Source: Pseudomonadota bacterium (lineage in GTDB: Bacteria; Pseudomonadota; Alphaproteobacteria; Rhodospirillales; Magnetospirillaceae). From it: DNA of 64,000 nucleotides. Shown here piece by piece: positions 8,156 through 22,652 of this stretch. The stretch's first letter is position 1. The number at the start of each line of letters is the position of its first letter. Under the pieces are notes generated by a model. That model had not been told where the DNA came from, did no database searches, and saw only the letters and a program-made list of their open reading frames with translations. The position numbers and the translations under genes are program-made. Location: NCBI GenBank assembly GCA_021847015.1, contig JAJZVW010000009.1, positions 1 through 64,000 on the forward strand. Direction: 5' to 3'.

Positions 8156-8231
8156 GCCCAGGTAGCTCAGTTGGTAGAGCATGCGACTGAAAATCGCAGT
8201 GTCGGTGGTTCGATTCCGCCCCTGGGCACCA
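8156..8231 (+). tRNA. tRNA-Phe (anticodon GAA), integration target
   Basis: The 76-nt gene starts GCCCAGGTAGCTCAG and ends with CCA. Acceptor arms GCCCAGG/CCTGGGC pair. The anticodon stem GCGA/TCGC holds the loop CTGAAAA, so the anticodon is GAA. Its 3' 50 bases (8182-8231) are duplicated exactly at 22443-22492. The element therefore inserted into this gene and rebuilt its 3' half, leaving a complete tRNA on the left. Confidence 0.98.
8182..8231 (+). repeat. attL: 50-bp direct repeat, left copy
   Basis: The bases from TGCGACTGAAAATCGCAG through the terminal CCA of tRNA-Phe recur identically at 22443-22492. The first bases on either side differ, so the repeat is exactly bounded. It covers the anticodon stem-loop, T arm and acceptor end, a classic tyrosine-recombinase target. 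Confidence 0.95.
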
Positions 8232-8236
8232 CTCTA

Positions 8237-8300: not shown

Positions 8301-8395
8301 CGGGACACTGGCGGGACAGTTGGCTGGCGCCCGCGCTTTCCCTGGCGCTCCCCCTTGACGGCTGCGCCACCACAGGCGACAGTTTTCGGGACAGT
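8301..8395 (+). promoter_or_regulatory. Left arm-type repeats (CGGGACAGT)
   Basis: The 9-mer CGGGACAGT occurs at 8312-8320 and 8387-8395, and the variant CGGGACACT at 8301-8309. A matching pair lies at 22333 and 22344 near attR with the same 11-base spacing. Repeated short motifs beside both att cores are typical of integrase arm sites. The last copy is 22 bases before the integrase start, so integrase could also regulate itself. Confidence 0.6.
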
Positions 8396-8417
8396 TAAAT
8401 CGCAGTGGGGATGCGCT

Positions 8418-9641
8418 ATGGCGCGCGGACAACTTCCCATCTTTGAGCGCAGAGCCGAAGACGGCCGGCTCATGGGCTACCAGGTCAAAATTCGGAAGCA
8501 GGGCTTCCCCACCGTCAGCAGGCAGTTCGACCGGTTCGCCGATGCTGAGCGATTCGCGCTGGATACCCTCCAGGCGATGACGGCCAGGACATTCACAGAC
8601 CGGCGTGAAGCGGAGCGCACCACCCTGGCCGATGCGCTGGACAGGTACAAGCGCGAGGTCACTCCCCATAAGAAGAGCGCCTACGGTGAGGGGTGCCTGA
8701 TCGAGCGGTTGAAGAAGCTTCGGCTGGCCGAATACAGCATTGCGACCATCCAAGGCGCGGATATCGCCGGATATCGCGATGCAAGGGCTGTCGAGGGAGC
8801 TTCTGCAAACACCATCCGCATCGAGCTTGCCCTTCTGTCCCACCTCTACACGGTCGCCGCGTCGGATTGGGGTATGCCTCTGGCCAACCCCGTGCGGCAA
8901 GCCCGCAAGCCGAAGCTGCCGCGCGGCCGCGATCGCCGCCTTGATCGCCAGCGGGATGATAACGGGCTAACGGAGGAAGATCGGCTCCTGGCCGCTTGCA
9001 AGGCCAGTAAGAGCCGGTGGCTGGAGCCCATTGTCCGGCTGGCCCTTGAAACTGGTATGCGCCGCGGGGAAATCCTTGGGCTGCGGTGGGAGCATATCGA
9101 TTTGTCCCATGGGACAGCACACCTCCCCGACACCAAGAATGGCGACAGCCGCTCGGTGCCGTTATCGCCGGCGGCGCGCAGGGCTCTTCTCGCCGTCCAC
9201 CGGACTCGGCAGGCCAAGTGCCGCAATCGGATCAAGCCTGCCCAACGGGTCGCTGTGGTATTGACCGTCCAGGCCAACGACAGGCGGAAGATCAAGAGAA
9301 GGGCGAGACGAGGGCCACTCTTCCCGATCGGGGACAGCGGCTTTGTCCACACCTTCCAACGTGCTGCGGAAAATGCTGGGTTGGTGGACTTCCATTTCCA
9401 CGACCTGCGCCACGAGGCCACCTCGCGGCTGTTCGAGCGCGGCCTTGACGTAATGGAGGTAGCCTCCATCACCGGTCACAAGACGCTGTCGATGCTGAAA
9501 CGCTACACCCACCTGCGGGCGCGCGACCTGGCGAAGAAGCTGGCGACATTACCGGCACCGACCTTGACGGCATCACCCGCTAAACAGCGGCCAACGACGG
9601 CCGGGGCCGGAAACGTCGTGCCATTGAAAAAGGCCGGTTAG
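8418..9641 (+). CDS. int: Site-specific tyrosine integrase
   Basis: This 407-residue protein has all the catalytic residues of tyrosine recombinases: Arg in TGMRRGE (about residue 214), the Lys region DTKNGDSRSV, HDLRHE (His about 328, Arg about 331), GHKT (His about 353) and the nucleophile Tyr in LKRYTH (about 362). An N-terminal SAM-like DNA-binding part precedes. The start at ATG 8418 is chosen over 8355 because the extra residues overlap arm-type repeats. It lies next to attL and most likely catalyses integration into tRNA-Phe. Confidence 0.95.
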   Translation: MARGQLPIFERRAEDGRLMGYQVKIRKQGFPTVSRQFDRFADAERFALDTLQAMTARTFTDRREAERTTLADALDRYKREVTPHKKSAYGEGCLIERLKKLRLAEYSIATIQGADIAGYRDARAVEGASANTIRIELALLSHLYTVAASDWGMPLANPVRQARKPKLPRGRDRRLDRQRDDNGLTEEDRLLAACKASKSRWLEPIVRLALETGMRRGEILGLRWEHIDLSHGTAHLPDTKNGDSRSVPLSPAARRALLAVHRTRQAKCRNRIKPAQRVAVVLTVQANDRRKIKRRARRGPLFPIGDSGFVHTFQRAAENAGLVDFHFHDLRHEATSRLFERGLDVMEVASITGHKTLSMLKRYTHLRARDLAKKLATLPAPTLTASPAKQRPTTAGAGNVVPLKKAG

Positions 9642-10039
9642 GCGGCCGCCGCCTTGATTGCGGGAAGTAATCCCTGGTTTACCACAATGCCAGCCATCAA
9701 GACACCAACATCATATACCGGTCTACCATGAATGTTTGCGATAACACCCAGGAACCCAAAGACGAATATAATCCCGAGAGAAAAGTAAGATAGCCACCTC
9801 CAGGCAGGATCTTGGTCTATATAGTCATATTTGTTACCTTTAATCATATCCCACAGCACAAACCCAGCGAACGCCGTTATAAAACCAACTGTGTAACCAG
9901 CGGCGAGATTGTGAAACCAGTCCATGCTTAGGCGGCGGATAGCGTCTGCCCCAGACAAAATCAGGAGCCACACCAAGGTCCCGACAACAGCGAGTCGGAC
10001 CTGCCACGCAGGAATCATGCTACCCATCATATCCCCCAT
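9638..10039 (-). CDS. Hypothetical membrane protein
   Basis: This 133-residue protein has four likely membrane spans: WQVRLAVVGTLVWLLILSG, then AAGYTVGFITAFAGFVLW, a span around WLSYFSLGIIFVFGFLGVI, and a C-terminal one near DVGVLMAGIVVN. It converges on the integrase with a 4-base overlap. Base composition is visibly more AT-rich than the neighbours. No family is recognised. The start could also be a few codons later (MMGSM). Confidence 0.6.
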   Translation of the reverse strand: MGDMMGSMIPAWQVRLAVVGTLVWLLILSGADAIRRLSMDWFHNLAAGYTVGFITAFAGFVLWDMIKGNKYDYIDQDPAWRWLSYFSLGIIFVFGFLGVIANIHGRPVYDVGVLMAGIVVNQGLLPAIKAAAA

Positions 10040-10119
10040 AAATAACTCGCTGCAAATACGTGCTCATGGCGTTGCTCTGCAGGCACCAATGAGCATTTAA
10101 TGTCTCGCCACCCTACGGT

Positions 10120-10302
10120 TCATGCATATGTTAGCTTTATTTGCAGCGCAGTTCCAACATCACTACACTCAATAGTTATTGTTCCGCCGCCAATATCCTC
10201 TATGATGACATCGCCGTCAAAGTCGCCATTTTTTCGCCTTTCCCTTATTTCTTCTTTTAGCTTCTCCAATATACCGGCGATTCGGATATTGCTGTTAGGC
10301 AT
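10120..10302 (-). CDS. Small hypothetical protein
   Basis: This 60-residue protein has an N-terminal charged helix (ILEKLKEEIRERRKNGDFDG) followed by beta-like segments DVIIEDIGGGTITIEC. It belongs to the AT-rich block of the tRNA-Phe element. No family is recognised and nothing else is known. A gene is plausible by composition and the intervening regulatory-looking hairpin upstream. Confidence 0.45.
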   Translation of the reverse strand: MPNSNIRIAGILEKLKEEIRERRKNGDFDGDVIIEDIGGGTITIECSDVGTALQIKLTYA

Positions 10303-10362
10303 AACATTCTCTCCGCGCTATGAAGATTTCCAAACTCACCATCTGAGCGACCTTAGACGGCC

Positions 10363-10400
10363 CGTTACCGTAACGCGACGTATGCCGCGTTACGGTAACG
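10363..10400. terminator. 15-bp perfect hairpin between two minus-strand genes
   Basis: CGTTACCGTAACGCG (10363-10377) pairs perfectly with CGCGTTACGGTAACG (10386-10400) around an 8-base loop. It lies 61 bases upstream of the 10120-10302 gene and 9 bases downstream of the YqaE-like stop. There is no T-run, so it may be a factor-dependent terminator, an mRNA stabiliser or an operator. Each arm is itself partly palindromic (GTTACGGTAAC). Confidence 0.55.
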
Positions 10401-10408
10401 CCACTTGG

Positions 10409-10621
10409 CTACGCTCCAGCGGCCTCGGTCGCCTCAGCCTTGAGCGCCTTCTGGATCTTCTTGTCGGTCTTGTATTGCGACAGCGCATAGACCGACCAGA
10501 TCGTGGCCGGAATCCAGCCAATCAGTGTGATCTGCAAAATCAGACACACGATGCCGGCGATGGGGCGTCCAATGGTGAAAAATTGAAGCCACGGGACAAT
10601 AAGAGCAAGAATCAGACGCAT
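10409..10621 (-). CDS. YqaE/Pmp3 family small membrane protein
   Basis: This 70-residue protein has two membrane spans and the family's pattern: a proline-containing first helix (LILALIVPWLQFFTIG), then IVCLILQITLIGWIPATIWSVYAL. Pmp3/YqaE proteins are stress-associated membrane proteolipids affecting membrane potential in yeast and plants; the bacterial role is poorly known. The C-terminus is charged (KTDKKIQKALKAEA). It is cargo of the element with no evident tie to transfer. Confidence 0.7.
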   Translation of the reverse strand: MRLILALIVPWLQFFTIGRPIAGIVCLILQITLIGWIPATIWSVYALSQYKTDKKIQKALKAEATEAAGA

Positions 10622-10682
10622 AACCTTCCTCCATCACTACGCACATTACTATTGTTAAACCATACTTAATGAATCATATATA

Positions 10683-10991
10683 TTACTTTTCCACCATTTC
10701 AAAGCACCCATCCGGCACAAAAACACCCATACCTTGCACATTCCCTGCCTTATCCGCACACAGAACAAGTTTTCTTCCCTTAACAAGCCATGTAACTATT
10801 CTGCCATTAGAGATACCTCCCGATTTAAATTCGTAGCCGTCGTTTAGATAGGTAATAATTCGCCCTTGCGGAATTGGGATAAAATCAATTGTTTTTGGCA
10901 TGCTATTCTTCGCCTGCTGCGCTTCAGCCGCACTGCCCATCACCACCAGCGCAACAACCATTCCGATGGCAAAAACACTGGCGAATTTCAT
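10683..10991 (-). CDS. Secreted hypothetical protein
   Basis: This 102-residue protein starts with a clear signal peptide (MKFASVFAIGMVVALVVMGS, cleavage after AEA). The mature part of about 80 residues is beta-rich with two cysteines (LCADK, DGCFEM). No family is recognised. It is AT-rich, like the other accessory genes here. Confidence 0.6.
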   Translation of the reverse strand: MKFASVFAIGMVVALVVMGSAAEAQQAKNSMPKTIDFIPIPQGRIITYLNDGYEFKSGGISNGRIVTWLVKGRKLVLCADKAGNVQGMGVFVPDGCFEMVEK

Positions 10992-11283
10992 GTCGTCCCC
11001 TTCCCGCGTGGCTATCCGATAGCGTCAACCATGGATAGTAGCACATCTACCATCGGGGGAAAGCCGACTCTCTACTTGTTACGAAGGCTGCAAAATCCGA
11101 GGGCCACCGCGCCGTCCTCGTTTTTGCGATGCTTTTGCGACGGAAATACACGGATCAAAGCGTAACGTTTTCGTATCAAAAACGAGGACACCAGAGAAAA
11201 TAAGGAGTTCTTTTCAAAAATATCTTCGAAGACTATCAAAGCTATTTCTCGGTAGAACTACCCGCAGATTTCGCCCATTTCAA

Positions 11284-11391
11284 GGTAGATAGCCCCAAAA
11301 CGGCAGGTAGATGACCGCCGATCCCCTGGTAGACGACCGCCAAGGGGCGGTAGACGCCCCAAACAAGGCGGTAGATGGTCGAAATGGCCAA
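11284..11391. repeat. Iteron array, five copies at 21-22 bp spacing
   Basis: GGTAGAT or GGTAGAC starts at 11284, 11306, 11328, 11349 and 11370, giving spacings of 22, 22, 21 and 21 bases. The following bases often read GACCGCC. Spacing near two helical turns is typical of initiator-binding iterons at plasmid origins. A further GGTAGA lies at 11251. The array sits in a gene-free stretch at the edge of the transfer module. A replication or control role is inference. Confidence 0.65.
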
Positions 11392-11514
11392 AAATGGACG
11401 GGGTAGGCAGCACAACCCACCCGCAACCCACCCTTTGCTTTTGCCTGTCCCCTTGGGGTGCAGGCCACGCCCTGCACCCCTGCCCCTCTGGCGAAGAGCG
11501 GGGGTGCAAGGCGG

Positions 11515-11581
11515 CAAGCCCCTTCGCGGGGACCCGGCTGCACAAGCCCGCAGGGCGCGGAAGCTGGGCGGAAGGGGCTTG
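11515..11581 (-). repeat. 67-nt covarying hairpin element, copy in the tRNA-Phe element
   Basis: CAAGCCCCTTC (11515-11525) pairs with GAAGGGGCTTG (11571-11581). Read on the minus strand, the 45-nt interior differs from the element at 53851-53917 by only three bases, and the 11-bp stem differs at three positions that are all compensated on the other arm. An inner GCCC/GGGC mini-hairpin is kept. Confidence 0.75.
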
Positions 11582-11615
11582 CTGCCGCGCTGAGGGCGGA
11601 GCCCTAAGAGGGGTG

Positions 11616-11649
11616 CCGCCGCCGGGCCGCCATGGCGGCCCGGCGGCGG
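11616..11649. repeat. 34-bp perfect palindrome
   Basis: The two 17-base halves around CCATGG are exactly complementary (CCGCCGCCGGGCCGCCA and its complement). A perfect palindrome of this length can extrude as a cruciform. It lies in the hairpin-dense non-coding region of the element. Its role is unknown. Confidence 0.8.
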
Positions 11650-11692
11650 GGGCGAAGCCCCAGGGTGCCGGCTTTCGGCAGGGACATGGCGA

Positions 11693-11974
11693 CCGGGCAC
11701 GCAACGGCCCCGCCAAAGGGGGCCACGCGCGATCGCGGAGCGAACGCGTGGGGGAGCGGGGTCGTGCCCGGGCGCGTCCCTGGCGAATGCCGGGGCGCAG
11801 CCCCCGTGAGGACGGCCAAGGCCGCGCCGCCGTGGCGGCGTGGGCGAGGACGGCCAAGCGGGCGGGGGGAGCCGCCGCAAGCGGGTGTCTCACCCGGCCC
11901 AGCGACGGCGCCGCCAAAGGGGACCCTGCGCGCCCGTGGAACGGGCGTGTAGGGGAGCGGCGCCGTGGGCCGGG
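11693..11974. repeat. Two related stem structures in tandem
   Basis: Copy A (11693-11771) has outer arms CCGGGCAC/GTGCCCGG and inner arms ACGGCCCCGC/GCGGGGTCGT. Copy B (11893-11974) has outer arms CCCGGCCCA/TGGGCCGGG and inner arms ACGGCGCCGC/GCGGCGCCGT. Both share the loop-side motif CGCCAAAGGGG. The stem sequences differ while pairing is kept, suggesting a conserved structure. Confidence 0.6.
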
Positions 11975-12008
11975 GGAACACCAGCGAAGCGGTGGGGGGC
12001 AGAGCCCA

Positions 12009-12224
12009 GCGCGTCGGGTGGAACCCGACTAACCCCGTTCGGGGGGAAGCGGCCCAAGGGGGTCCCCAGACCGATTTTCGGCCAGCGGAGCGGTGCCGAA
12101 AATAGGCCTGGGGGGGCCGCGTCCGACGCCCTGCGATCGTATGTGAGGAGCGAAGCGATCTCACATGCGGGAGCAGTTGGCGGAGGCCCACCGAAGGGGG
12201 TTAGTCGGGTTCCACCCGACGCGC
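12009..12224. repeat. 28-bp perfect inverted repeat, 160-base spacer
   Basis: The arm at 12009-12036 begins GCGCGTCGGGTGGAACCCGA, and its exact complement is at 12197-12224. The 28-base match has no mismatch. Within the spacer a shorter dyad (ATGTGAG...CTCACAT near 12141-12166) is also seen. Function unknown. Confidence 0.75.
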
Positions 12225-12570
12225 CAGGGGGAGCCGGCGATAGCCGGGGGAGAAATCCCGAAGCGGCGACGTATACGTCGCCGTCGAAGGGGTGTTCTCC
12301 CCCCACGCAGTGGGCAGGTGAAAGCCAAGGAAACCGCGCATTGCGCGGTGCATCCTTGGCTGAGGGGAGACGACAGAGGGCGACGCATGCGTCGTCCGGC
12401 GGAGGGCTCCCCTGGGGAGCGATGGTCGGTCTCGACCATCGGTCCCCGCGTTCGGTCATCCAGGCGGACCGAATGGAATGACCGAAGCGAAGGACCGAAC
12501 GAGAGAGGGTGGCCCGGCAGAGCGGCGGCCATGTACGAATAGGCCGGGCATCGCCCGGCCTACGTCATGG

Positions 12571-12780
12571 CTATTGCTGCGCCGGCCACGGTCGGAGCGG
12601 ATCGGAAAGATCGGCGTCCAGCCGATACCATCCGCCCCCGCGATGACTCCAAGCGCAATCGCCGGTGGAGATATCGACACCCAGGCGACGGCTTATTTCC
12701 TCATGGTTCAAGATCATGCCGCCCTTATCCAGGCGAAAACGGACGGCGGCGGTAACGGTGGTGATTTGATGCCGGTTCAT
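12571..12780 (-). CDS. Small hypothetical protein
   Basis: This 69-residue protein is the last gene of the minus-strand transfer module. The middle (GMILNHEEISRRLGVDISTGDCAW) may form a small helical unit. No family is recognised. A gene is supported by the short 18-base spacing from the next upstream gene and by module strand. Confidence 0.45.
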   Translation of the reverse strand: MNRHQITTVTAAVRFRLDKGGMILNHEEISRRLGVDISTGDCAWSHRGGGWYRLDADLSDPLRPWPAQQ

Positions 12781-12798
12781 TTGATCTCCCCTTCCCTT

Positions 12799-12996
12799 TT
12801 AACGCGCCGCGACGGCGGCGATGATGTCCGCGACAGTGGGCATGTCGCGGCTGGCGAGCAGCCGCACGACTGCATCGAGCGGCAAAGCGGCCAAGTCCTC
12901 GACCGCCGCCGCGTAGGCCGCGCGGTACGCGGGCTGATCCGTCGGCGGCGTGGCGTCAAGAATGGCGAGCGATCGCAATCCTGTTGTGCTGGTCAT
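12799..12996 (-). CDS. Small Ala-rich hypothetical protein
   Basis: This 65-residue, mostly helical protein (AYRAAYAAAVEDLAALPLDAVVRLLASRDMPTVADIIAAVAAR in its second half) overlaps the stop of the VirB5-like gene by 4 bases. The tight coupling suggests it belongs to the transfer operon. It could be a small regulator or an entry-exclusion factor; nothing in the sequence decides. Confidence 0.5.
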   Translation of the reverse strand: MTSTTGLRSLAILDATPPTDQPAYRAAYAAAVEDLAALPLDAVVRLLASRDMPTVADIIAAVAAR

Positions 12997-13820
12997 GCGC
13001 GTTTTCCTTTCCTGCTGTACGCGACGGCGAGCCGGGCAAGCGGCTCGGGCGTGATGGCGGCCCGCTGTGGCAACGGAGCGTTGCCGGGCGGGGCGGCCGG
13101 CGGGGCGGCGGGCGTCGAGGCCGGCGCCGGCTGAGACAACTGCGGGAGGATCGAGGCCAGCGGGGAGGCATCGACCCGCAGGGCCTTGGCCGCGCGCAAT
13201 TCGGTGATCGCGGCCTCGACGCGTTGAAGGCTCAAGAGTTCCGCCCGCACGAGGTCCACCGTCTTCATCAGCGCGGCCACCTGCTCGCGGACGTTGGCGG
13301 CCTGGTCGCCCTGCACCAACGCGGCCTGGGCCTCGGCGGCGGCGTCGGGCAACGCAACGCGGCTGGCCTCGGCCGCCGCGAGTCCATGTTGCCCGGCGAG
13401 GATCACGGTTTCGGAGCGGCGCGACGCGACCAAGCCGAGGTTACGGCCCGAGCCGTCGGGCGAAAACAGGACCGAAGCCACCCACCCCTCGGCCGACGCC
13501 TGGGTGGTCAAATTGGGCGTCGGCGCCGCGCCGATTGCGCTGATCGGCGACACGTCCACGGCCGCGTCCTCAAGGGAGGCCGTGGGCGGCCCGGAGGAGA
13601 TGGCGCCTTTTCCGCCCATGCTGTCGTTGACGTGGCCAAAGATGGTGTTGCCAAGGCTGTAAAGCTGGGTGGCGGTCGTCACCGCGCTGACGAGCTGCGC
13701 CGTCTGGCCGATCCGAATCGGGTCGGCAATCGCGTAGAAGCAACAGCCGGTCGGGCAGGCCTCGGCGACGGCGGGGGCCAGGACGGCCACCGCCGCCAGG
13801 ATAGCAAGGCGCCGTTTCAT
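12993..13820 (-). CDS. VirB5-like minor pilin / periplasmic transfer protein, copy 1
   Basis: This 275-residue protein has a signal peptide (MKRRLAILAAVAVLAPAVAEA) and a mature N-terminus CPTGCCFYA. A helical middle and the segment EGWVASVLFSPD followed by a long Ala/Gln-rich coiled helix recall VirB5 and related pilus-tip proteins. The C-terminus is proline-rich. It overlaps the next gene by 4 bases. Similarity is to fold pattern rather than to clear signature motifs, so the VirB5 call is moderate. Start ATG 13818-13820 is the only one giving a signal peptide. Confidence 0.55.
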   Translation of the reverse strand: MKRRLAILAAVAVLAPAVAEACPTGCCFYAIADPIRIGQTAQLVSAVTTATQLYSLGNTIFGHVNDSMGGKGAISSGPPTASLEDAAVDVSPISAIGAAPTPNLTTQASAEGWVASVLFSPDGSGRNLGLVASRRSETVILAGQHGLAAAEASRVALPDAAAEAQAALVQGDQAANVREQVAALMKTVDLVRAELLSLQRVEAAITELRAAKALRVDASPLASILPQLSQPAPASTPAAPPAAPPGNAPLPQRAAITPEPLARLAVAYSRKGKRA

Positions 13821-14806
13821 TGGGTGCCTCCCCCGATGATCTGCGGCTTTTCCGAGGCCTGGGCCTCGGTCGCTTCGATTTCCAGCGCGGCCTCTTCCTC
13901 GGCCGCCCAATGCTGCGCGTCGGCCGCCAATGTCGCGGCCGTGGTGCCCAGGGCGCCGGCCTGTCCAATGGCGGTGCCGGCATTGCCAAGGTTCGCGGTC
14001 GCGGCGATTTCGGCGTCCGCGTTCGGCAAATCGGCTTGCTGCTGCGAAGCAAGGCCATAGCCGTACTGAGCGGCGGCGATTAGCGCCGCCTGCCGGCGCT
14101 TCTCGGCCGATTCCAGGGCCGCGCCGCTGGTATTGGCCGTCGCGAAGGTCTGGCCGATCCACGCCGCCGCCGTGTCCTGGGTAGACCAGTTCCGCTCCGG
14201 AACCGGCATGCCCGGAATCGCCGTCACGGTGCTCAAGTCCGGCGGGGGCACATCGAGCATGACGGCCGGCGTACCCGCCTGCCCGGCGCCCGCGTCGCCG
14301 AGGGCGCCGTGGGTGCCACCAAGGAGGCCCGAGGCTTTCGACGCAAACGAAACGACGCTGGTGATTCCGCCGACGACTTTAACCGCCTGTGCCAACCCCG
14401 ACAGATCCGAGGTGGCCGCCGGGCAAATACACGGGTCATCGGCCTTGGCGGACGGGATGGCGAGCAAGCTCGCCACGTCGCGGACCCGCTCGCGCCAGGT
14501 GTTCGAAACGCAATGGCCGAGGGTGGCGGCGGATGGCGCCGCCGGGGCCTTGGTCGCCACGGCCTGGTGAAGCCGGGCGTCCAGGCTGATGCTGGGCAAG
14601 GTGTCACCCTTCGGCAGAGGAATAGCGGGCGGCGCGCTGGCCGGCTTCCAATGGCCGGGCTTCGGCAAGTCGGGGGCCGGGGCGATGATCGGCACCAGCC
14701 GCACAGCCGGCGTCGCCGGCTGGTAGTGGTGGCCAGCGACCACGGCGGCGACGGCGAACGCCGTCACGGCGGCGGCGCCGATGCCGACGATCCGCCGGGC
14801 GGTCAT
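13817..14806 (-). CDS. VirB5-like exported transfer protein, copy 2
   Basis: This 329-residue protein begins with an uncleaved-looking anchor (IVGIGAAAVTAFAVAAVVAG). It has a cysteine pair (DPCICPAATSDL), and a C-terminal helical region in which WIGQTFATANTSG is followed by EKRRQAALIAAAQYGYGLAS, the same layout as the two neighbouring VirB5-like proteins. It overlaps both neighbours by 4 bases. The three look like diverged tandem duplicates. Confidence 0.55.
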   Translation of the reverse strand: MTARRIVGIGAAAVTAFAVAAVVAGHHYQPATPAVRLVPIIAPAPDLPKPGHWKPASAPPAIPLPKGDTLPSISLDARLHQAVATKAPAAPSAATLGHCVSNTWRERVRDVASLLAIPSAKADDPCICPAATSDLSGLAQAVKVVGGITSVVSFASKASGLLGGTHGALGDAGAGQAGTPAVMLDVPPPDLSTVTAIPGMPVPERNWSTQDTAAAWIGQTFATANTSGAALESAEKRRQAALIAAAQYGYGLASQQQADLPNADAEIAATANLGNAGTAIGQAGALGTTAATLAADAQHWAAEEEAALEIEATEAQASEKPQIIGGGTQ

Positions 14807-16149
14807 GGCGTGCCTCCAGCCGAAGCGACAACAGGTGCAACGGGAGTGTCGTGAATGGCTCTCGCCGATTCGATGGCAAGCTGGGCGGTTCTCAACGCCC
14901 GGACGGTTGCAAGTTCGCCCTGCAACACGGTCAAGCCGACCTGGAGGGCGGCAAGCTGGCCGCGAAGATCCTTGGCGTTGTTTCCGGCCTGCATCATAGC
15001 CTGGGCGCGCTTGTCGTCGTCGGCGGCATTGGTGCGGGTGGTCAGGGCCAGGGCGTAGCCGCTCGTGGCGGCCTGGGCCAAGGCAACGTCTCGCCGGCTG
15101 TCGATCGTTTGAAGCGTGGCCGCTGCGGGGGGCGTGCCGGCCTGCTGCACGGGCACGTACAGAGTGCCCGCAACCCAGGTTTGGGCATTGGCGACGGTCG
15201 CGAAATTTGCGGCCGGGGCCGCCGGCAGGCCGGGCGCGGTGATACTGGCCATCGTCGTGGCCGTGGCCGCCGGGGCATAGGCGGAGAGCATCGAGGACAA
15301 GCCGGTAAGCGAAACGTGGCCGCCGGATGCCCCCATGCCGAACGGCAGTTGCAGGGTGGAGGTGACGCTGGGCGCGCTGGTGCCGGCCAGCCGGGTGATA
15401 TTGCCCTGCGCGAAGCCGAGGGTGTTCCCGAGGTTGCCGGCGTTGTTGGCCAAGTTGATAGCTCCGCCCACGGCACCGGCCGCTTGGCCGATGCTGCCAT
15501 TTCCGGCGGCGTTGCCGGCACCAGCAATGGCATTGTTGGCGGCATTGATTGGCGAATTCGCCACGTTGTTGGCGGACGAAAGCACCGTGCCAAGAGCGTT
15601 GCCCGGAATATTGGACACGGTGCCGATGGCGCCCGTGGTCGCCCCGAGAAGGTTATTTCCGGCCTTGGCGATGTTGCCGGCCGAAGCGGCCAACTGGCCG
15701 AAGCCTGAGCCGGAGCCGAGACCAATGCTGCCGAGGGCGTTGCCGATGGAATTTTCGACGCCCTGCATGCCGGAATTCACGTCGCTGGCGAGGCCGTTTA
15801 ATCCACTCGCGGCCTGACCGGCCAGGGAGTTGGCCCCGCTCGCGAGCGAGCTGGCGCCGCTGGAAATGTCGCCGGCGGCGGCATTGAGGCTCCCGGCGAT
15901 ATCGCCGGAACTGACGGCGGAAAAGATCGAGTCCACCTGGCCAACGCCGGCACTGCCGACCGCATCGGAGATGGTGCTGGTGGTGCTGGCCATTTGGGCC
16001 ATGGTGCTCGCCGTCGTGGCCGTCTGGGTCGCGGCGGCGGCCGTCTGTGCGACGTTGCTCGGGTCAACCACCACGCACTGGGCGTTGGCCGTCGAAATGC
16101 CCGCAAGCAATGCGAGGGCGGCGACGCCGCCAGCGAGACGATTGTTCAT
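14803..16149 (-). CDS. VirB5-like exported transfer protein, copy 3 with repeat-rich insert
   Basis: This 448-residue protein has a signal peptide ending ISTANAQ. The next 230 residues are a low-complexity Ser/Asn/Ala/Gly region (repeats like NSLAGQAASGLNGLA and NAIAGAGNAAGNG), unlike normal VirB5. The C-terminal part returns to the shared plan: AQTWVAGTLYVP, then SRRDVALAQAATSGYALAL and a terminal coiled helix. It may be an extended pilus-tip or adhesin-like component. It ends 2 bases after the VirB6-like gene begins downstream. Confidence 0.6.
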   Translation of the reverse strand: MNNRLAGGVAALALLAGISTANAQCVVVDPSNVAQTAAAATQTATTASTMAQMASTTSTISDAVGSAGVGQVDSIFSAVSSGDIAGSLNAAAGDISSGASSLASGANSLAGQAASGLNGLASDVNSGMQGVENSIGNALGSIGLGSGSGFGQLAASAGNIAKAGNNLLGATTGAIGTVSNIPGNALGTVLSSANNVANSPINAANNAIAGAGNAAGNGSIGQAAGAVGGAINLANNAGNLGNTLGFAQGNITRLAGTSAPSVTSTLQLPFGMGASGGHVSLTGLSSMLSAYAPAATATTMASITAPGLPAAPAANFATVANAQTWVAGTLYVPVQQAGTPPAAATLQTIDSRRDVALAQAATSGYALALTTRTNAADDDKRAQAMMQAGNNAKDLRGQLAALQVGLTVLQGELATVRALRTAQLAIESARAIHDTPVAPVVASAGGTP

Positions 16150-16151
16150 GG

Positions 16152-17534
16152 TCAAACTCCTCTGACGCGACGATTTCTGTAGCCATTGATCCAATCGGCG
16201 GTGGTTTTGGCCCCCTTGAGCGCGGCAAGTTTTCCGCCGGCGCCTGCGAGTTTTCCGGCCCCCGCCAGTTTTCCACCCACGAATTTGGCGCCGCCCATGC
16301 CAGCGGCGGCGGCAAAGCCAGCGGCCACGGCCGCGAGGCCGCCGCCACCGCCGCCGGCAGCGCCCAGCAATTCGTTTGCGAGGGCCTTGGCCTGGTGCTG
16401 CCCCATGACGGAGAGCCAGCCAATCAGCCAAAGTTCCCAGAATGAAAACCTAAATATCAGGACGCCCGGCGTGGAGATTTGATCGGTCGTTAGCGTGGGA
16501 AAATACTTCGCTGCGACGAAAATGCTGAAGCCGAGCAACACGGCAGAGAAAACGAGGGTGAACCCGGCTGCGAAGTATTTCTTCACTGCGGCCACGGTGA
16601 TGTATCGCGTTGGACCGAAATACGCGGTGATGGCGAACAGCGGCCCGACCGATGTCAACAACAGGAAAAAGAAGATCGCTTCGGCGATGTGGGCGGCCAC
16701 CGCCACCAACGCCAGCAGATAGGGAAACATCAAGCCGAGGGCGAGAAGCACATTCACGATCCGCCGCCATTCGAGCACCCCGCCCGTTCCCGGAAGCGAA
16801 GCCACCTTCAGCGCAACGGCGCAGATAGACATGAATGTGTTTTCGGCCGTTCCGAAGAGTTGGCCGAAGGGCGTCGTTGCCCCGTTCACCGGCCCAGAAT
16901 TGCCCGCAATGCCGTTGGCCATGGCGGTTGCCAGCCCGGTCAGGAAATTCCGAGACGGCTCATAGAGCGCGTGCCAAAAGAGGCCCGATTGCCCTCCCGT
17001 GCTCTTGGTCAACACGGCCGTTACGATAATGGCCCCGGCACCGCTTATAAGTACCTTCATGTACTCGAATTTGCCGAACACCAGATATTTCAAAAACGTA
17101 AACATGATCGCCGCAATCAACAACGCGTGCCACGTCGTGATGGCGGCGGCGGCGATTTGGCCGGACATTTTCGCGGAGTACGTCTCGCCCTGCGTCGAAA
17201 GATCGTCCAACACCACGCACACATGGCAGGACTTCGCGGACTGAAGAATTGCAAGAAATTGGTCCGCGTTTTGTGCCGTGTTCGCGATTTCCAGCGCGGC
17301 GGCGGCGGTCGTCGAGGCGGCTTGGTTTTGGGTTGAGGCGGTCGAAGCCTGATTTTGCGCGGCCTGCGCGGCGGCCAGGGCTTGGAGATTTTGGGGGGTC
17401 GGACTGGCGTTGTATGCCGCTTGCGCGGCGGACACGCTCTGCGCCGGCGTCAGCGCCTGGGCGCTGGCCGTGCCAGCCATCACCGCCGCCAGGATGGCGA
17501 CGGCAAGGGCGGCGATGCGAAACGCGCGGTTCAC
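16152..17534 (-). CDS. VirB6/TrbL-like inner-membrane transfer protein
   Basis: VirB6 proteins form the inner-membrane channel of type IV secretion systems. This 460-residue protein starts with GTG, has a signal-like N-terminus, an Ala/Gln-rich segment, two cysteines (CHVCVVL) and then six to seven hydrophobic spans, including WHALLIAAIMFTFLKYLVFG and IAEAIFFFLLLTSVGPLFAI. The C-terminus is Gly/Ala/Lys-rich. The FFFLLLTSVGPLF stretch is characteristic of TrbL/VirB6. The start is set by the 4-base overlap with the upstream gene. Confidence 0.75.
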   Translation of the reverse strand: MNRAFRIAALAVAILAAVMAGTASAQALTPAQSVSAAQAAYNASPTPQNLQALAAAQAAQNQASTASTQNQAASTTAAAALEIANTAQNADQFLAILQSAKSCHVCVVLDDLSTQGETYSAKMSGQIAAAAITTWHALLIAAIMFTFLKYLVFGKFEYMKVLISGAGAIIVTAVLTKSTGGQSGLFWHALYEPSRNFLTGLATAMANGIAGNSGPVNGATTPFGQLFGTAENTFMSICAVALKVASLPGTGGVLEWRRIVNVLLALGLMFPYLLALVAVAAHIAEAIFFFLLLTSVGPLFAITAYFGPTRYITVAAVKKYFAAGFTLVFSAVLLGFSIFVAAKYFPTLTTDQISTPGVLIFRFSFWELWLIGWLSVMGQHQAKALANELLGAAGGGGGGLAAVAAGFAAAAGMGGAKFVGGKLAGAGKLAGAGGKLAALKGAKTTADWINGYRNRRVRGV

Positions 17535-17863
17535 TCGCCGATCTCCGCGACGGCGCCGGCCGGCTTCGGAGATGCCCGCCATGCACGCCAATCCTCGCGA
17601 ATGGTGGCGACGGCGGGGCGGTATCGCCCGGCCGCGACTTTTTGCCCTCGGCCGATTGCGTAGCCGACTACGCCGGCCATGGTGGTGAACGTGGCCACCA
17701 GCGCCCAACCGAAAAAGCGCGCCACCTGGCTGGCGTCGGCGGCCGGCACCCAAACCCAAGTTGCGAAGGTTGCCATGCCGCTGGCGGCGACGGCGGCAGG
17801 CAGAAGTGACCAGGCCGGCGAAAGCCAACCCTGGGGGCAGTTGGGGTAATGAAGGCGACGCAT
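17531..17863 (-). CDS. Small membrane protein of the transfer module
   Basis: This 110-residue protein has two hydrophobic segments (about residues 16-38 and 49-70) with a basic C-terminus. It overlaps the VirB6-like gene and starts 15 bases after the proline-rich gene. Location suggests a small inner-membrane transfer component (VirB3-like position), but there is no sequence signature for VirB3. Confidence 0.5.
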   Translation of the reverse strand: MRRLHYPNCPQGWLSPAWSLLPAAVAASGMATFATWVWVPAADASQVARFFGWALVATFTTMAGVVGYAIGRGQKVAAGRYRPAVATIREDWRAWRASPKPAGAVAEIGE

Positions 17864-17877
17864 GGCTATTCTCCCTT

Positions 17878-18165
17878 TCAGTGGGCCGGCGGGGCGGGCG
17901 GCGGGGGCGGAGGAACCGGGGCCGGCGGCGGCGCCGGCACGAGCTGGGGAACGGGGGCCGGAGGCGGCACGGGTACCGGGGGAGCCGGCGGCGCGGAGGC
18001 ATCGAGACCAGGGAACGGCGGGCCGGGTGGCGTGGCCGGCGCGGTCGCGGCCCGCCAGCCGAAAACGGCGGCGGCGGCGATGCCCGCGCCGATGGCGACG
18101 GCGCGGATAGCGCCGCGATTCCGCTCAGCCAAGGCGTGAAAACGGCGTTCAGCTTCGGATTGCAT
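17878..18165 (-). CDS. Proline-rich membrane-anchored protein
   Basis: This 95-residue protein has an N-terminal cytosolic helix, one membrane span (AVAIGAGIAAAAVFGW) and a periplasmic tail of 45 residues made almost entirely of Pro, Ala and Val. The layout resembles the N-terminal part of VirB10/TrbI, but the beta-barrel domain is missing. It may bridge inner membrane and periplasm for a pore supplied elsewhere. Confidence 0.5.
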   Translation of the reverse strand: MQSEAERRFHALAERNRGAIRAVAIGAGIAAAAVFGWRAATAPATPPGPPFPGLDASAPPAPPVPVPPPAPVPQLVPAPPPAPVPPPPPPAPPAH

Positions 18166-18167
18166 GG

Positions 18168-18887
18168 CTATTCGTCCTTTTTCTTCGGGGGGAAATCGGT
18201 TTCCGCAACGACGCGAAAACGCTTGCGCTCGGCGGCGGTCAGGGCGCCGCCGCCGGGTAGGCGGACGGCGGCAAAAATTCGGGCAAGGCCGGACACGAGC
18301 GACGGCGGCGCAACGACGTAGACGCCGGCATAGCTGCCGGCGGTGATGGCTTTCAGGTGCCCGGCAACAATCGCGCGGTAGCGCTGCGGGGTTTTGACAG
18401 TTCGCTCGGCCTCGATGGCCAGCCGCACGCCGTCCGGGCGGGTACCGATGGCATCCGGCCGGGTCGCGAGGTCGCGGGCGAGCCGGTCGCCGGGCGTCCA
18501 GCCGGTCCAGCCGGCGGCCTCGCCCGCCGCGCGTAGCCTTTGAATCATCAGGCGATGAGGGATGGCCGACAGGGCCACTCGGCCCGGCTCGAAGACCGGG
18601 CCCGCTGGGTCGATGCCGGCGTCCATGCCGGCCACCACGGCGCGGCCATGGGGCGTAATGCCCCAAATGGTCAGGGCGGACAGGTCGGGCGCGGGCGCAC
18701 GCCGCACGGAACCTTCGCGCGCGAGGGTCGACAAAAGGCGGTTACTGACCCGACGGCAGCCAATGCCCGCCGCCCGGCCGATGAGATCGGCGGTCGACCA
18801 AACCTCGCTAGCAAGGTAACGCAGGACGGCGGCACGCTTCGACGCCGCACGCGCCGTGCGGGTGGCCGCGTCAGAGATCAGGGGCAT
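18168..18887 (-). CDS. Replic_Relax-like winged-helix protein, possible mobilization factor
   Basis: The 239-residue protein has an N-terminal winged-helix-like region (VLRYLASEVWSTADLIGRAAG ... SNRLLSTLAREGSVRR). A C-terminal domain holds RPDAIGTRPDGVRLAIEAERT followed by a long helix, the layout of replication-relaxation (Replic_Relax) proteins. Those are linked to plasmid and ICE mobilization. It is the only relaxase-like candidate in the element. The start at 18887 gives a 17-base overlap with the coupling-protein gene. Family assignment is from pattern, not a search. Confidence 0.5.
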   Translation of the reverse strand: MPLISDAATRTARAASKRAAVLRYLASEVWSTADLIGRAAGIGCRRVSNRLLSTLAREGSVRRAPAPDLSALTIWGITPHGRAVVAGMDAGIDPAGPVFEPGRVALSAIPHRLMIQRLRAAGEAAGWTGWTPGDRLARDLATRPDAIGTRPDGVRLAIEAERTVKTPQRYRAIVAGHLKAITAGSYAGVYVVAPPSLVSGLARIFAAVRLPGGGALTAAERKRFRVVAETDFPPKKKDE

Positions 18888-20694
18888 CGTCGGCCTCCTG
18901 GCTGCGCCGCTGGCCCGGGCCGGCGATTTCGGCGGCCAGGGCATCCGCCCAAGCGGCGCCCTCGTCCTCGTCCGGCTCGGCGTCGGCCGGCGCCGCCGCA
19001 CCGGCAAGGCCGGGCGCAAGAGCGCGTTTTTCGGTGGGAATGGGGCAGATATAGGAAAAGTCGATCAGCCCCGGCGCAAATACTGCTGCGATCTTTTCCG
19101 GCAACGCCAGGAAATGGTTGCTGTCTATGCGATCACGCTCGGCTTGCCGGATGCTGCGGTCACCCGTCGATGTCTCAACCAAGGCGCCAGTTTTGCTAGT
19201 GGTAAAATTTCGCGATTCATCATCAACAAGGATTTTTCCTGTCGTCCTCGCCAGCCATTCCGCCGTATCGGCGTTTTGGATTTTGTAAGCGATGCGGATT
19301 TTGCAGTTTTCAATGACCGCGTCTTGCACCGCATCGGGGTTAAGGTCTGCGGGGCAGTCGCGCAGGTCGCCAAGGCTTTGGTGAGCAAGGATAAGGTGAG
19401 CGCCCTTGTCGCGGATGGCCCCGAGCATTTCTAGCGCGGGGCGGCTGATGTGTGCCTTTAGCTCATCAAGGAAGATTAAAACCTGCCGAGGCTTTCCTTT
19501 CACCCGGTCACGGCTCTCCACGATTTGACAAAGGCGAACCAAAAGCATCCTTTGCAAAGCGAGGATTCGACCGTGGCGCATGCTACCGATGACGTACACG
19601 CAACCGCCCTGGGCGATGATGTCCGCGAGGTCTGGGGCGTGCGGGCCGGCACAGACAGTTCCACCGGCCGCCGACTCTTCAAGGCGGCCAATCAGGCCGG
19701 CGGCTGATTCGGCCATGGCCGGATCGGCGGTGGCAGCCTCGGCCAAGTCCGCCAGCGTAGCGGGGTTCGCGCGGTCAGAGACGATGACCTGGCGGGACAG
19801 CACTCGCGCCGCGCGTCTATCCCCCATTCTGTAGAAATCGGCGCCAGAGCCTTTGTCGGAAAGTGAGAACCCCGCAACAAGGAGTTCTTCGACCTGCTCC
19901 GCCGTAGCGCCAGCCAGTATATTGATCTGTGGGACTTCTTTGCGGAGATCGATTAACAGGAAGGGCTTGCCGAGCAGTTCAGCTTGGCTTCCAAGCAAGC
20001 TGGGTGCCCATTCATCATCCTTGGGGTCGAGCACTACCACCGCCTCGCCAGCTTTCAGTGCCTGACCACAGCACAGCCCAGCGGCGACGCCCTTGCCGGC
20101 GCCCGTCGTTCCGACAAGTTGGATGTGGCAACGCGCGAACACCGCATACGGGATACACACCGGCTTTCCGCGACGGTCGAGGCCGAGGAATACTTGCCCG
20201 TCGCGGAAGTACTTCGTCGGGTCATAGGTGCTTTTCGGCGCCGGGAGGCTGTCCGCGACGGTGCGGATGTCCGTCCTAGTCGCGCGCGCCGTGGTCGTGC
20301 GCAGCGCGAGCTTTTGCTTGATGGCATCAAACTTTGCTATGGCGGGACGAAAGGCATACCAGTAGAGGCCCAAGGCCACCAGGATGCCCGCACCGCCAGC
20401 CACTATGGGCGGTTCAATAGGTGCGAAGTGGCCGCGCAACAATCCATCTTGCCAAAGCCATGCAATCACGGACGGCAGCCAGAAATATGCGCCGGGGGTG
20501 ATAGCTAGGCACGCCCCTGCCGACAGCCGCAGGGCCATTCGGGCCGCAGTGGCTGGGTTGTCGATTTTCGGCAGGCTGATGATGACCGAAACAAGCAGCA
20601 CAAAGAGCGCTGCGGCGATCGCAGTGGCGAGTTGGAAATGCAGGTAGAGCCAGAGCACTGCCAGGGCGATGTCATGCATGATCATCATGGGCAC
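18871..20694 (-). CDS. VirD4/TraG-type conjugative coupling protein
   Basis: Coupling ATPases bring the DNA-relaxase complex to the mating pore. The 607-residue protein has N-terminal hydrophobic spans (residues 8-40, 58-83 and 96-112), Walker A GTTGAGKG at about 195-202, Walker B VLIFLDELKAH near 400, and LAHQSLGDLRDCP, the usual conserved Gln region. The C-terminus is acidic, as in proteins that receive substrates. It is intact and heads the transfer module. Confidence 0.88.
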   Translation of the reverse strand: MPMMIMHDIALAVLWLYLHFQLATAIAAALFVLLVSVIISLPKIDNPATAARMALRLSAGACLAITPGAYFWLPSVIAWLWQDGLLRGHFAPIEPPIVAGGAGILVALGLYWYAFRPAIAKFDAIKQKLALRTTTARATRTDIRTVADSLPAPKSTYDPTKYFRDGQVFLGLDRRGKPVCIPYAVFARCHIQLVGTTGAGKGVAAGLCCGQALKAGEAVVVLDPKDDEWAPSLLGSQAELLGKPFLLIDLRKEVPQINILAGATAEQVEELLVAGFSLSDKGSGADFYRMGDRRAARVLSRQVIVSDRANPATLADLAEAATADPAMAESAAGLIGRLEESAAGGTVCAGPHAPDLADIIAQGGCVYVIGSMRHGRILALQRMLLVRLCQIVESRDRVKGKPRQVLIFLDELKAHISRPALEMLGAIRDKGAHLILAHQSLGDLRDCPADLNPDAVQDAVIENCKIRIAYKIQNADTAEWLARTTGKILVDDESRNFTTSKTGALVETSTGDRSIRQAERDRIDSNHFLALPEKIAAVFAPGLIDFSYICPIPTEKRALAPGLAGAAAPADAEPDEDEGAAWADALAAEIAGPGQRRSQEADDAPDL

Positions 20695-20820
20695 CTCGGC
20701 GGTAAAGGCACCCTTGCCGAGCAGGCGGTGCCTGCCAGCGCGGGGTGCTCGGGATAGGGGATGGATGAGTGGAGGGGCGTCTTAGGGAATCTGTGATTCT
20801 TAAAATACGCGCGCGCGTGG

Positions 20821-20925
20821 TGGTCGGCTGCACCGACCAGACTGGTCGGTGTGACGCACCAGATTGACCAGCAACTGGTCGGCGCGGCCGACCAGTCTAT
20901 CGCGCTGGTCGGCTGCGCCGACCAG
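20821..20925. promoter_or_regulatory. Cluster of TGGTCGG dyads upstream of the coupling-protein gene
   Basis: Perfect dyads with arms TGGTCGG/CCGACCA lie at 20821-20839, 20875-20895 and 20905-20925 (the last two with an extra C/G pair), and a lone TGGTCGG at 20843-20849. All are separated by short GC spacers. The cluster lies between the DNA-binding protein at 20954-21712 and the coupling gene, 127 or more bases upstream of its start. It could be an operator, an oriT or initiator-binding sites. Confidence 0.6.
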
Positions 20926-20953
20926 CGGTACGAGCGCTGCCAGGGCGCGGCGA

Positions 20954-21712
20954 TCAAAGGGATTGCTCCCGCGCCAGGTCGTCGGCAACCCACCCTACCC
21001 ACCCAGCAAGGAGGTCGCCACGGTCGGCACGGGTGTCGCCGGGGCACCGTGGGGCGCCGCGCCCAACCGCGACGCGGTGCCACCGCAGGCGGTCACCCAC
21101 GGAGGCAGTCGCCAGCCAGCGGACAACCCGCCCGATGATGTCCGGATCAGCGGTCGGGCCGCCGCCGCCGGCGACGACTATCCCCACCCCACCGTCAGCC
21201 ACGTGCTGGTGCACATGAGTCACATGCTGATGCAGGTGGACAGTGACAGCTGGGCTCGGCTGGCCGGCGGCAAGTGCCTTATGCATCTCTCTTTCGTCCT
21301 GGGGTGCATACCCCCAGGACGCGCTTCCGGCGACCTGCCCGTCGGCGTCTCGGAGCGGTGCGACATGCCGCACTCGCCAGACGGCCCGCCGGCGCTCGCC
21401 GCCCCCATCGACCCGCTCCGCCCAACCGGCGGCCTGAAGCGCCCGCAGCACGGCAATGGCCGTCTCCTTTGTCATCCCGGCGAGGCGCGCGAGCTGACTG
21501 ATCGGGTAGTTCTCGACCCGGCCGCTGTGCAAATCAGCCACCACGGACAGCACCAGGAGCATGGTGTTCGCGTGGTGTCCGAGGCGCGCGGCATCGCCGC
21601 TAAGGACGTACCACGAGAGGAGATGTGCCCACCGCAGATCCTCCGATCGGATGTGCAGCCCGTCGGCGACGCTGAAAGTTGGCGATGACGGCGTTTTCGG
21701 CCGGGGGCTCAT
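20954..21712 (-). CDS. Winged-helix DNA-binding protein, possible replication initiator
   Basis: This 252-residue protein has a clear helix-turn-helix: YPISQLARLAGMTKETAIAVLRALQAAGWAERVD (about residues 68-101). The C-terminal half is uncharacterised, with a His-rich patch (HLHQHVTHVHQHV, about 157-170). Its position beside the dyad cluster and the iteron-bearing element suggests an initiator or regulator. No Rep family could be assigned. Confidence 0.55.
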   Translation of the reverse strand: MSPRPKTPSSPTFSVADGLHIRSEDLRWAHLLSWYVLSGDAARLGHHANTMLLVLSVVADLHSGRVENYPISQLARLAGMTKETAIAVLRALQAAGWAERVDGGGERRRAVWRVRHVAPLRDADGQVAGSASWGYAPQDEREMHKALAAGQPSPAVTVHLHQHVTHVHQHVADGGVGIVVAGGGGPTADPDIIGRVVRWLATASVGDRLRWHRVAVGRGAPRCPGDTRADRGDLLAGWVGWVADDLAREQSL

Positions 21713-22098
21713 GTCGCTTCCCCCTGCCCGCCCTGCTCGGCCCGATCCAGGCCAGGCTTCCGGGGCCGCCCGCCGCGTCCGCGCACCGAGGGCGCGACGG
21801 CAGCCTTTTTGGGACGGCCAGCGCGGCGCGGAGCCGACGCGACAACAAGCGGCTCCGCTGAAGCTGGAGCGGCCTTCTTCAGCCGCTCGAGGTACTTCTC
21901 GACGTCCTGCCTGTCGTAAACCGCCTCTTTCCCAGACATGCCGAACGGCAGGAGGGCCCGGTCAATCCGCGCGAGCGTCCAATAGCCGATCGGATAAGCA
22001 GCGGCCACTTCCGCGCGGGTAAGCCACCGCCGATCGGCGACCGGCAGACGCTCAACGGCGCGCTTGCGCGTGGGCTTGGGGGGAGGAGAATCGGGCAC
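21709..22098 (-). CDS. AlpA-like helix-turn-helix protein, possible excisionase
   Basis: This 129-residue protein has an excisionase-type motif: WLTRAEVAAAYPIGYWTLARID followed by the wing-like VYDRQDVEKYLERL (residues 25-70), as in AlpA/Xis proteins. The basic tail has two AT-hook-like cores (RAGRPKK and GRGGRPRKPG). It is first in the minus-strand operon and 345 bases from attR. A role in excision and in switching on the transfer genes is inferred. Confidence 0.65.
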   Translation of the reverse strand: MPDSPPPKPTRKRAVERLPVADRRWLTRAEVAAAYPIGYWTLARIDRALLPFGMSGKEAVYDRQDVEKYLERLKKAAPASAEPLVVASAPRRAGRPKKAAVAPSVRGRGGRPRKPGLDRAEQGGQGEAT

Positions 22099-22332
22099 GG
22101 CACAGCCTTTTCGCTGTGCCGCATTGCTACGTAGCGGCTGCTGATCTCTAGCACGGGTCCGCGACGGCGCCGGCGACCTCGACGGGGGCCACTAGCGGCC
22201 CCAATTCACCCCACGGGGGTGACACCCTTGTATTTTTACACTGCCACGCGATTGAGCGCCGGTCAAGACCGAGAGCGGGGACCGAAAGCAGGGACCGAGC
22301 GGCCCGGTGCGACACTGTGATTGCCGCCGCTT

Positions 22333-22409
22333 CGGGACAGTATCGGGACAGTTGGAGTGCAAACGATGGCAACCAACAGCAACCAATATCATTGATTATC
22401 AATGCATTA
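22333..22409 (+). promoter_or_regulatory. Right arm-type repeats and IHF-like site
   Basis: CGGGACAGT occurs at 22333-22341 and 22344-22352 (11-base spacing, same as the left-end pair). TATCAATGCATTA at 22397-22409 fits the IHF consensus WATCAANNNNTTR exactly and lies 33 bases before the attR core. Together they look like an intasome site. The stretch 22099-22442 holds no gene. Confidence 0.6.
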
Positions 22410-22442
22410 TATGTCAGTGCAGCCCCCTATCTGGGCTAAAAT

Positions 22443-22492
22443 TGCGACTGAAAATCGCAGTGTCGGTGGTTCGATTCCGCCCCTGGGCACCA
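22443..22492 (+). repeat. attR: 50-bp direct repeat, right copy
   Basis: This is identical to the 3' 50 bases of tRNA-Phe at 8182-8231. It lacks the tRNA's 5' half, so it is not a functional tRNA. Chromosomal sequence resumes at 22493. Confidence 0.95.
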
Positions 22493-22652
22493 TTCTCCTT
22501 CCCAGTCCGCTGAAAGCCCTTCGCTTTTCCCCAGACTTTGTCCCATCGGCCAAAGCTGGGGACGAAAGTGGGACATTGTCGGCCGCGTTCCGGTCCGGCG
22601 CGAGCAGGTGCTTGGCCGGATCGGCCAAGCGTTTCCGGTTCACTTTCCAGCT

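Follow-up and report, generated by a model that had tools for sequence, protein, structure and literature searches.

Salmonella genomic island 1 (SGI1) is a chromosomal mobilizable island that lacks a full type IV secretion system (T4SS) and carries replacement subunits for the mating pore, among them TraG, the equivalent of VirB6 (PMC5389848). Mating tests showed that TraN, TraH and TraG of the island replace those of its IncC helper and raise island transfer above that of the helper, and that the TraG of the island (TraG_S) disables entry exclusion (PMC5389848). Such pore remodelling has so far been proved for SGI1 alone and proposed for two IncP-related islands. A 2017 review lists as putative pore remodellers GIsul2, which encodes TrbJ, TrbK and TrbL and no relaxase, and the IncP island of Burkholderia glumae, which encodes MobP, TrbJ and TrbL and has kin in alpha- and gammaproteobacteria (PMC5704250). 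Here we describe an element of 14.3 kb in a 64-kb stretch of DNA (the window) from a member of the Magnetospirillaceae; the 115-kb contig C26, which begins with the window, belongs to a genome of 3.6 Mb in 77 contigs. The element encodes a predicted MOB_C relaxase (MobC), a type IV coupling protein (T4CP), one VirB6 and three VirB5-like proteins. Judged by its genes and by comparison with the islands above, pore remodelling is probably the best reading of this set, with the element depending on a helper for its pore.

The 3′ end of a tRNA-Phe gene recurs at 22443–22496, and the mobilization module is therefore part of an integrated element that extends from 8182 to 22496 (Table 1). The two attachment (att) repeats are 98% identical, with one mismatch, and lie 14,261 bases apart. 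A sequence-only reading of the window had placed the limits of the module at 12571 and 20694, which was wrong at both ends; 12571–12992 does not contain any module gene. From the right end, the minus strand carries the genes for an AlpA-like and a Rep-like protein, a palindrome array and then a run of eight genes in the order T4CP, MobC, a proline-rich protein of 95 amino acids (aa), a 110-aa membrane protein, VirB6 and the three VirB5-like proteins. These genes had been described as all coupled by 4-base overlaps, but this applies to three of the seven junctions; of the remaining four, one is an overlap of 17 bases and three are gaps (2, 14 and 2 bases). An integrase and site-specific direct repeats occur together with own mobilization genes and an incomplete mating pore. 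From this gene content, the element is most likely a helper-dependent integrative mobilizable element (IME) that encodes both a relaxase and a coupling protein.

VirB6 and two of the VirB5-like proteins fit one T4SS class. The single VirB6-like protein claimed in the earlier reading was borne out: it scored 35.8 bits with PF04610 (curated cut-off 25.9) and 121.6 bits with a profile of seven other VirB6s that share a CxxC motif, where the best of 1000 shuffled sequences reached 6.8 bits. With a profile of Trb/ICEKp1-type VirB6s the score was −29.2 bits. The CxxC motif (C103, C106) is common to other alphaproteobacterial VirB6s found by homology, and the VirB6s of L091–L094 and of plasmid pMSR-1 served as reference for the class. 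Three tandem VirB5-like proteins had also been claimed, and two of them, VirB5a (23.9 bits) and VirB5c (12.7 bits), matched a profile of the VirB5s that precede VirB6 in four CxxC-class T4SSs; none of 1000 shuffled sequences did as well. The three proteins are mutually related (BLASTP 2e-13 for b and c, and 3e-8), and none of them matches a TrbJ-type profile or a Pfam VirB5 model. A scan of 384 other genomes of the taxonomic class with the VirB5 profile gave no clear homologue. VirB6 is thus a real homologue, two of the VirB5s probably are, and they point to one T4SS class, that with CxxC-type VirB6, which is other than the Trb class found elsewhere in the host.

No other VirB protein is encoded among the genes of the element, VirB8 to VirB11 and with them the core complex being absent, and the genome-wide matches to VirB4 (PF03135) and VirB10 (PF03743) all fall outside it. 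The earlier statement that VirB4, VirB11 and an outer-membrane ring are missing therefore holds for the whole bounded element. The VirB10-like stub of that reading did not survive: the 95-aa protein does not match the TrbI/VirB10 C-terminal domain (PF03743). It contains a single hydrophobic segment, and as family searches gave no meaningful match, the name rested on composition only.

The module had been pictured without a relaxase, and the mobC gene had been missed. MobC matched NF041423 over 208 aa (3.7e-51; 173.7 bits, under the model cut-off of 200) and PF13814 (Replic_Relax) just above the cut-off (1.6e-5; 25.5 bits). It is 37% identical to the MobC of IME L051 and 36–37% identical to those of CloDF13-type Klebsiella plasmids. 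In the motif PD...ExERxxK, residues P144, D145, E159, E161, R162 and K165 are invariant among seven MobCs; they may include the acidic residues of a PD-(D/E)XK-type site, and some may correspond to the proved catalytic residues of TraX. The listed MOB_C relaxases, MobC of CloDF13 and TraX of pAD1, are kin of restriction endonucleases (PMC12857230). Sequence searches of the PDB with VirB6 and MobC alignments gave no usable match. The T4CP was correctly named a coupling ATPase in the earlier reading (Table 1). Its 47 relatives lie mostly in integrative and conjugative elements (ICEs) of the ICEKp1 type and adjoin mobC; where sufficient flanking sequence is available, the majority are ICEs that have VirB genes alongside. 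A single IME clade for the T4CP was considered and dropped, as the T4CP of the window forms a long branch without a supported place in the tree. Viral contigs scanned with the T4CP and VirB6 profiles contained no relatives, and the plasmid collection contained no match to the window VirB6.

That related MobC/T4CP pairs sit mostly within complete ICEs would also be expected if the element were the remnant of an ICE that lost virB2–4 and virB8–11 and by chance retained the genes for the relaxase, the coupling protein, VirB6 and VirB5. We consider such decay improbable. All eight genes are open and tightly packed, with 4-base overlaps in three places, the att sites and the integrase are intact, and VirB5 is triplicated. 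Moreover, the nearest kin of MobC and T4CP and those of VirB6 belong to different T4SS classes, and the separate IMEs L051, L056, L060, L061 and L128/L129 repeat this small subset, in every case including VirB6 or the F-type equivalent.

At least three further IME lineages of the same bacterial family carry a lone CxxC-type VirB6 together with unrelated relaxases and without VirB4 or VirB8–11 nearby. L061 is an element of 8.0 kb between 49-nt repeats that resemble a tRNA 3′ end and encodes an integrase, an HUH relaxase, Rep and VirB6. L060 combines an integrase, an HUH relaxase and VirB6; VirB4 was found nowhere in the host genomes of L060 and L061. L128 (genome G052) and L129 (genome G054) represent the same IME, with an AlpA-like and a Rep-like protein, a lone VirB6, a NikA-like protein and an HUH relaxase. 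The latter carries a Toprim domain.

Outside the family, two unannotated contigs of metagenome-assembled genomes (MAGs) resemble the element in another way. L051 (Proteobacteria bacterium DS3.bin61) and L056 (Methylotenera sp.) share with it an AlpA-like protein, a Rep-like protein, MobC, T4CP, an integrase and a few pore subunits, and the integrases of the window and L051 are 47% identical over 357 aa. L051, which lies between tRNA-Met repeats, differs in gene order and in its F-type subunits TraN (4.5e-50) and TraG_N (1.8e-70). In L056, the MobC/T4CP core comes with a single VirB5 and with a VirB6 from a different class; the T4CP frame is broken in the MAG. The window element, L051 and L056 each pair a T4CP with pore subunits. 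This would suit an adapter function, by which island VirB6 and VirB5 let a foreign MobB-type T4CP dock on the helper pore and have no role in entry exclusion, and Carraro et al. suggest for SGI1 that TraHG give preference to the substrate of the island itself (PMC5389848). Against this, L060, L061 and L128/L129 carry a lone VirB6 and no T4CP in the stretch read, and CloDF13-type mobC/T4CP plasmids manage without pore subunits. We regard an adapter function alone as rather unlikely, though less so than decay.

In the VirB6 tree, the VirB6s of the family IMEs and of the window clustered apart from most VirB6s of full T4SSs of the family, on long branches. A single IME clade was neither shown nor rejected (2 changes compared with 4.7 in shuffles; P value of the approximately unbiased test 0.12). 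The row L131 of this tree, labelled T4SS, is a 3.9-kb contig lacking context. It is conceivable, and we propose it tentatively, that swapping a VirB6-type subunit is a general strategy to which conjugation satellites have turned repeatedly. IMEs whose relaxases are unrelated (MOB_C plus own T4CP, or HUH) would differ in their VirB6 equivalents, each of which would suit another class of helper (CxxC, Trb/Vir-like or F-type), and the VirB6s of the family IMEs would be one lineage adapted to evade exclusion by a resident T4SS.

We looked for T4SSs that could serve as helper. In the host, the VirB4 and VirB10 matches fall in two Trb-type T4SSs, one on C26 at approximately 77–96 kb, the other on C21 with a probable extension into C64. 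These were rejected as cognate donors of the pore subunits because VirB6 and the VirB5s misfit the Trb class. The region of C26 beyond the window (64–110 kb; L003–L005) is a second, larger conjugative region of Trb class that does not match the island VirB6. Its genes, mostly assigned by eye, encode ParA/TraL-like, TraG-like T4CP and TrbM-like proteins and a protein of 2548 aa, as well as TrbB-C-D-E, TrbJ, TrbL, TrbF, TrbG and TrbI.

CxxC-class T4SSs were present in eight other genomes of the same bacterial family, one of them with two copies. The check proposed in the earlier reading, for a helper T4SS with matching VirB5 and VirB6, thus gave candidates of the class among relatives and none in the host assembly. 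They were recognised by VirB4 and/or VirB8-VirB9 alongside VirB6; those on longer contigs are complete, and three lie on contigs too short for every gene. The class also occurs on plasmids of Magnetospirillum gryphiswaldense, Thalassospira and Roseibium. The gene order in L093 is VirB2-3-4-5-6-8-9-10-(729-aa protein)-11-D4, and pMSR-1 of M. gryphiswaldense is much alike. As the VirB6 of L130 is identical to that of pMSR-1, we infer that the family includes M. gryphiswaldense or a very near relative. In two plasmid T4SSs of the class, a gene of approximately 175 codons is annotated on the opposite strand between virB5 and virB6 (L097, 5367–5900; L098, 9475–10002). IncP and IncN plasmids carry their exclusion gene at this place; the gene in the CxxC-class T4SSs is possibly one for entry exclusion. 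Between virB10 and virB11, a protein of approximately 700–730 aa is encoded (L097, 10169–12256; L093, 14039–16225), which had no Pfam match when that of L093 was tested.

Like SGI1, the element has a few pore subunits including a VirB6 equivalent and no VirB4. Unlike SGI1, which supplies F-type subunits for IncC helpers and has mobilization proteins of another kind, MpsA and MpsB (PMC6414798, PMC9299015), it possesses a coupling protein, which SGI1 lacks (PMC5704250). It carries VirB5 and VirB6 and a tRNA-Phe site instead of TraN, TraH and TraG and the SGI1 att site, and is therefore not a member of the SGI1 family but may work alike. The IncP island and GIsul2 resemble it in that they encode a VirB5 and a VirB6, namely TrbJ and TrbL, with hardly any further pore genes (PMC5704250). 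They differ in the IncP type of these subunits, in MobP or no relaxase, in the guaA site and in the lack of a coupling protein; moreover, they have one TrbJ as compared with three VirB5-like proteins. The comparison with these islands is by gene content. CloDF13-type plasmids and ICEKp1-type ICEs also have a MOB_C MobC (identity about 30–37%) beside their own T4CP, but the former have no pore subunits and the latter a whole VirB set. Two Streptococcus IMEs resemble the element in combining a MobC relaxase with their own VirD4, but they are from Firmicutes and no pore subunits are mentioned (PMC5704250). The element joins two traits, a MOB_C relaxase with its own coupling protein and VirB5/VirB6 subunits of a third T4SS class, with three VirB5s. 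No published report of such a combination was found in the open-licence literature.

VirB6 is an inner-membrane subunit, and TraG, its counterpart in IncC and F plasmids, is what entry exclusion targets on the donor side. In other systems, VirB5s are proteins of the pilus tip or minor pilus proteins. IncP and IncN plasmids have the gene order VirB5, exclusion, VirB6, and TraG is the exclusion factor in IncC and IncF plasmids (PMC8923210). Given this gene order and the role of TraG, VirB6 and VirB5 are likely subunits to swap.

Since the element has a relaxase, a DNA pump and a few pore parts but no pore, it would travel by slotting its parts into the pore of another element. In the chromosomal state, the island is integrated in tRNA-Phe between the 54-nt att repeats. 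Entry of a conjugative element of the CxxC-VirB6 class would be followed by excision of the island by the integrase with an AlpA-type factor. MobC would nick the origin of transfer (oriT), probably within the array of palindromes that lies upstream of the gene for the T4CP, and the island T4CP would bring the relaxosome to the helper pore, as with CloDF13. The island VirB6 and VirB5s would be built into this pore and displace those of the helper, as in SGI1. What the island would most likely gain from its VirB6 is passage into helper-bearing cells; perhaps this VirB6 also fits the pore to the island T4CP, and the VirB5s may alter the contact with the recipient. Escape from exclusion and fit to the island T4CP are two functions that the sequence cannot tell apart.

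Subunit variants can also clash with their partners, as SGI1 TraH does with IncC TraG (PMC5389848), and the VirB6 and VirB5 variants might poison or block the helper pore and so shield either the host or the island itself against further conjugative elements. We rate such interference as the least probable explanation, since the island encodes a relaxase and a T4CP and its own transfer therefore needs a working pore.

Several points weigh against pore remodelling. An entry-exclusion target was not identified. The host assembly does not contain a CxxC-class T4SS, although a helper plasmid may be absent from its 77 contigs. The VirB6 match is remote (22–28% identity), with a long branch in the tree, and VirB5b does not match VirB5s directly, being tied to them only through its sister protein VirB5c. 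The AlphaFold models were poor and not usable (predicted local distance difference test scores of 44 for VirB5c and 48 for VirB6). Taken together, the recurrent IMEs with a lone VirB6, the CxxC-class T4SSs in the family and the MobC/T4CP relatives with other pore subunits support the parallel with SGI1 that the sequence-only reading had drawn, and neither observation that it had named as a refutation, missing VirB genes in another part of the element or a lack of VirB5/VirB6 homology, was made.

The element and its relatives extend pore remodelling, as we read it, to a third T4SS class, to MOB_C islands that bring a coupling protein of their own, and to environmental alphaproteobacteria. The part common to such islands is VirB6 or its F-type equivalent. 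From this we predict that satellites and helpers contest the conjugation pore at VirB6, and a relaxase with a lone VirB6 and no VirB4 may serve as a signature in searches for satellites.

Table 1. Features of the integrated element and its tRNA-Phe site in the window
Feature	Position	Strand	Evidence
tRNA-Phe(GAA), integration site	8156..8231	+	ARAGORN; Rfam RF00005
attL, 54-nt repeat of tRNA-Phe 3′ end	8182..8235	.	Direct repeat
Tyrosine integrase	8355..9641	+	PF00589 3.4e-32
133-aa membrane protein	9638..10039	-	Open reading frame (ORF); no Pfam match
102-aa exported protein	10683..10991	-	Weak BLASTP match to L061 protein adjoining integrase
VirB5-like c, 275 aa, exported	12993..13820	-	CxxC-class VirB5 profile 12.7 bits
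VirB5-like b, 329 aa	13817..14806	-	Kin to c, BLASTP 2e-13
VirB5-like a, 448 aa, exported	14803..16149	-	CxxC-class VirB5 profile 23.9 bits; DUF4141 1.4e-4, below cut-off
VirB6/TrbL protein, 460 aa, CxxC motif C103/C106	16152..17534	-	PF04610 9e-9
110-aa protein, two hydrophobic segments	17531..17863	-	ORF; no family match; 4-base overlap with virB6
95-aa proline-rich protein, one hydrophobic segment	17878..18165	-	ORF; no meaningful family match
MobC, predicted MOB_C relaxase, 239 aa	18168..18887	-	NF041423, PF13814
T4CP (VirD4/TraD/MobB-type), 605 aa	18871..20688	-	PF02534 (T4SS-DNA_transf) 7e-14; SXT_TraD-like 1.2e-23
Array of four CTGGTCGG-N5-CCGACCAG palindromes	20820..20925	.	Pattern count
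Winged-helix Rep-like or regulatory protein	20954..21712	-	Weak helix-turn-helix (HTH) matches; position as in L051 (TrfA-like Rep) and L056
AlpA-like HTH protein	21709..22098	-	PF12728 0.003, below cut-off; position as in L051, L056, L128
attR, 54-nt repeat of tRNA-Phe 3′ end	22443..22496	.	Direct repeat

The pattern CTGGTCGG-N5-CCGACCAG occurs four times within 106 bases, with 0.76 matches expected per whole window and no window shuffle out of 100 reaching four. The array is a candidate oriT or origin of replication. Direct repeats also lie upstream of the mobilization genes in L051 (6106–6234, 22-nt units) and L056 (9441–9586, 73-nt), placed comparably to the array, and are oriT or iteron candidates. 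The AlpA-like protein is a candidate excisionase or regulator.

The small exported protein at 10683–10991 weakly resembles one encoded at 6003–6275 of L061 (BLASTP 1e-6, 31% identity over 68 aa), with an integrase near both, and the two are candidate exclusion or immunity proteins. A search of 316 other genomes of the order gave no match to it at E 1e-4. In the ORF-poor, GC-rich stretch of the element (11.0–12.9 kb), a 38-nt inverted repeat (12009–12046 and 12187–12224) is 95% complementary, its arms being 140 bases apart. It had no Rfam match, the Rfam scan finding tRNA only, and its 20-nt core had no exact copy in the loci of other genomes. The same stretch contains two 95-nt copies of 71% identity (at 11693 and 11894). 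Just beyond the right end of the element, 23214–24539 encodes a protein that by eye resembles a B12-binding radical SAM enzyme.

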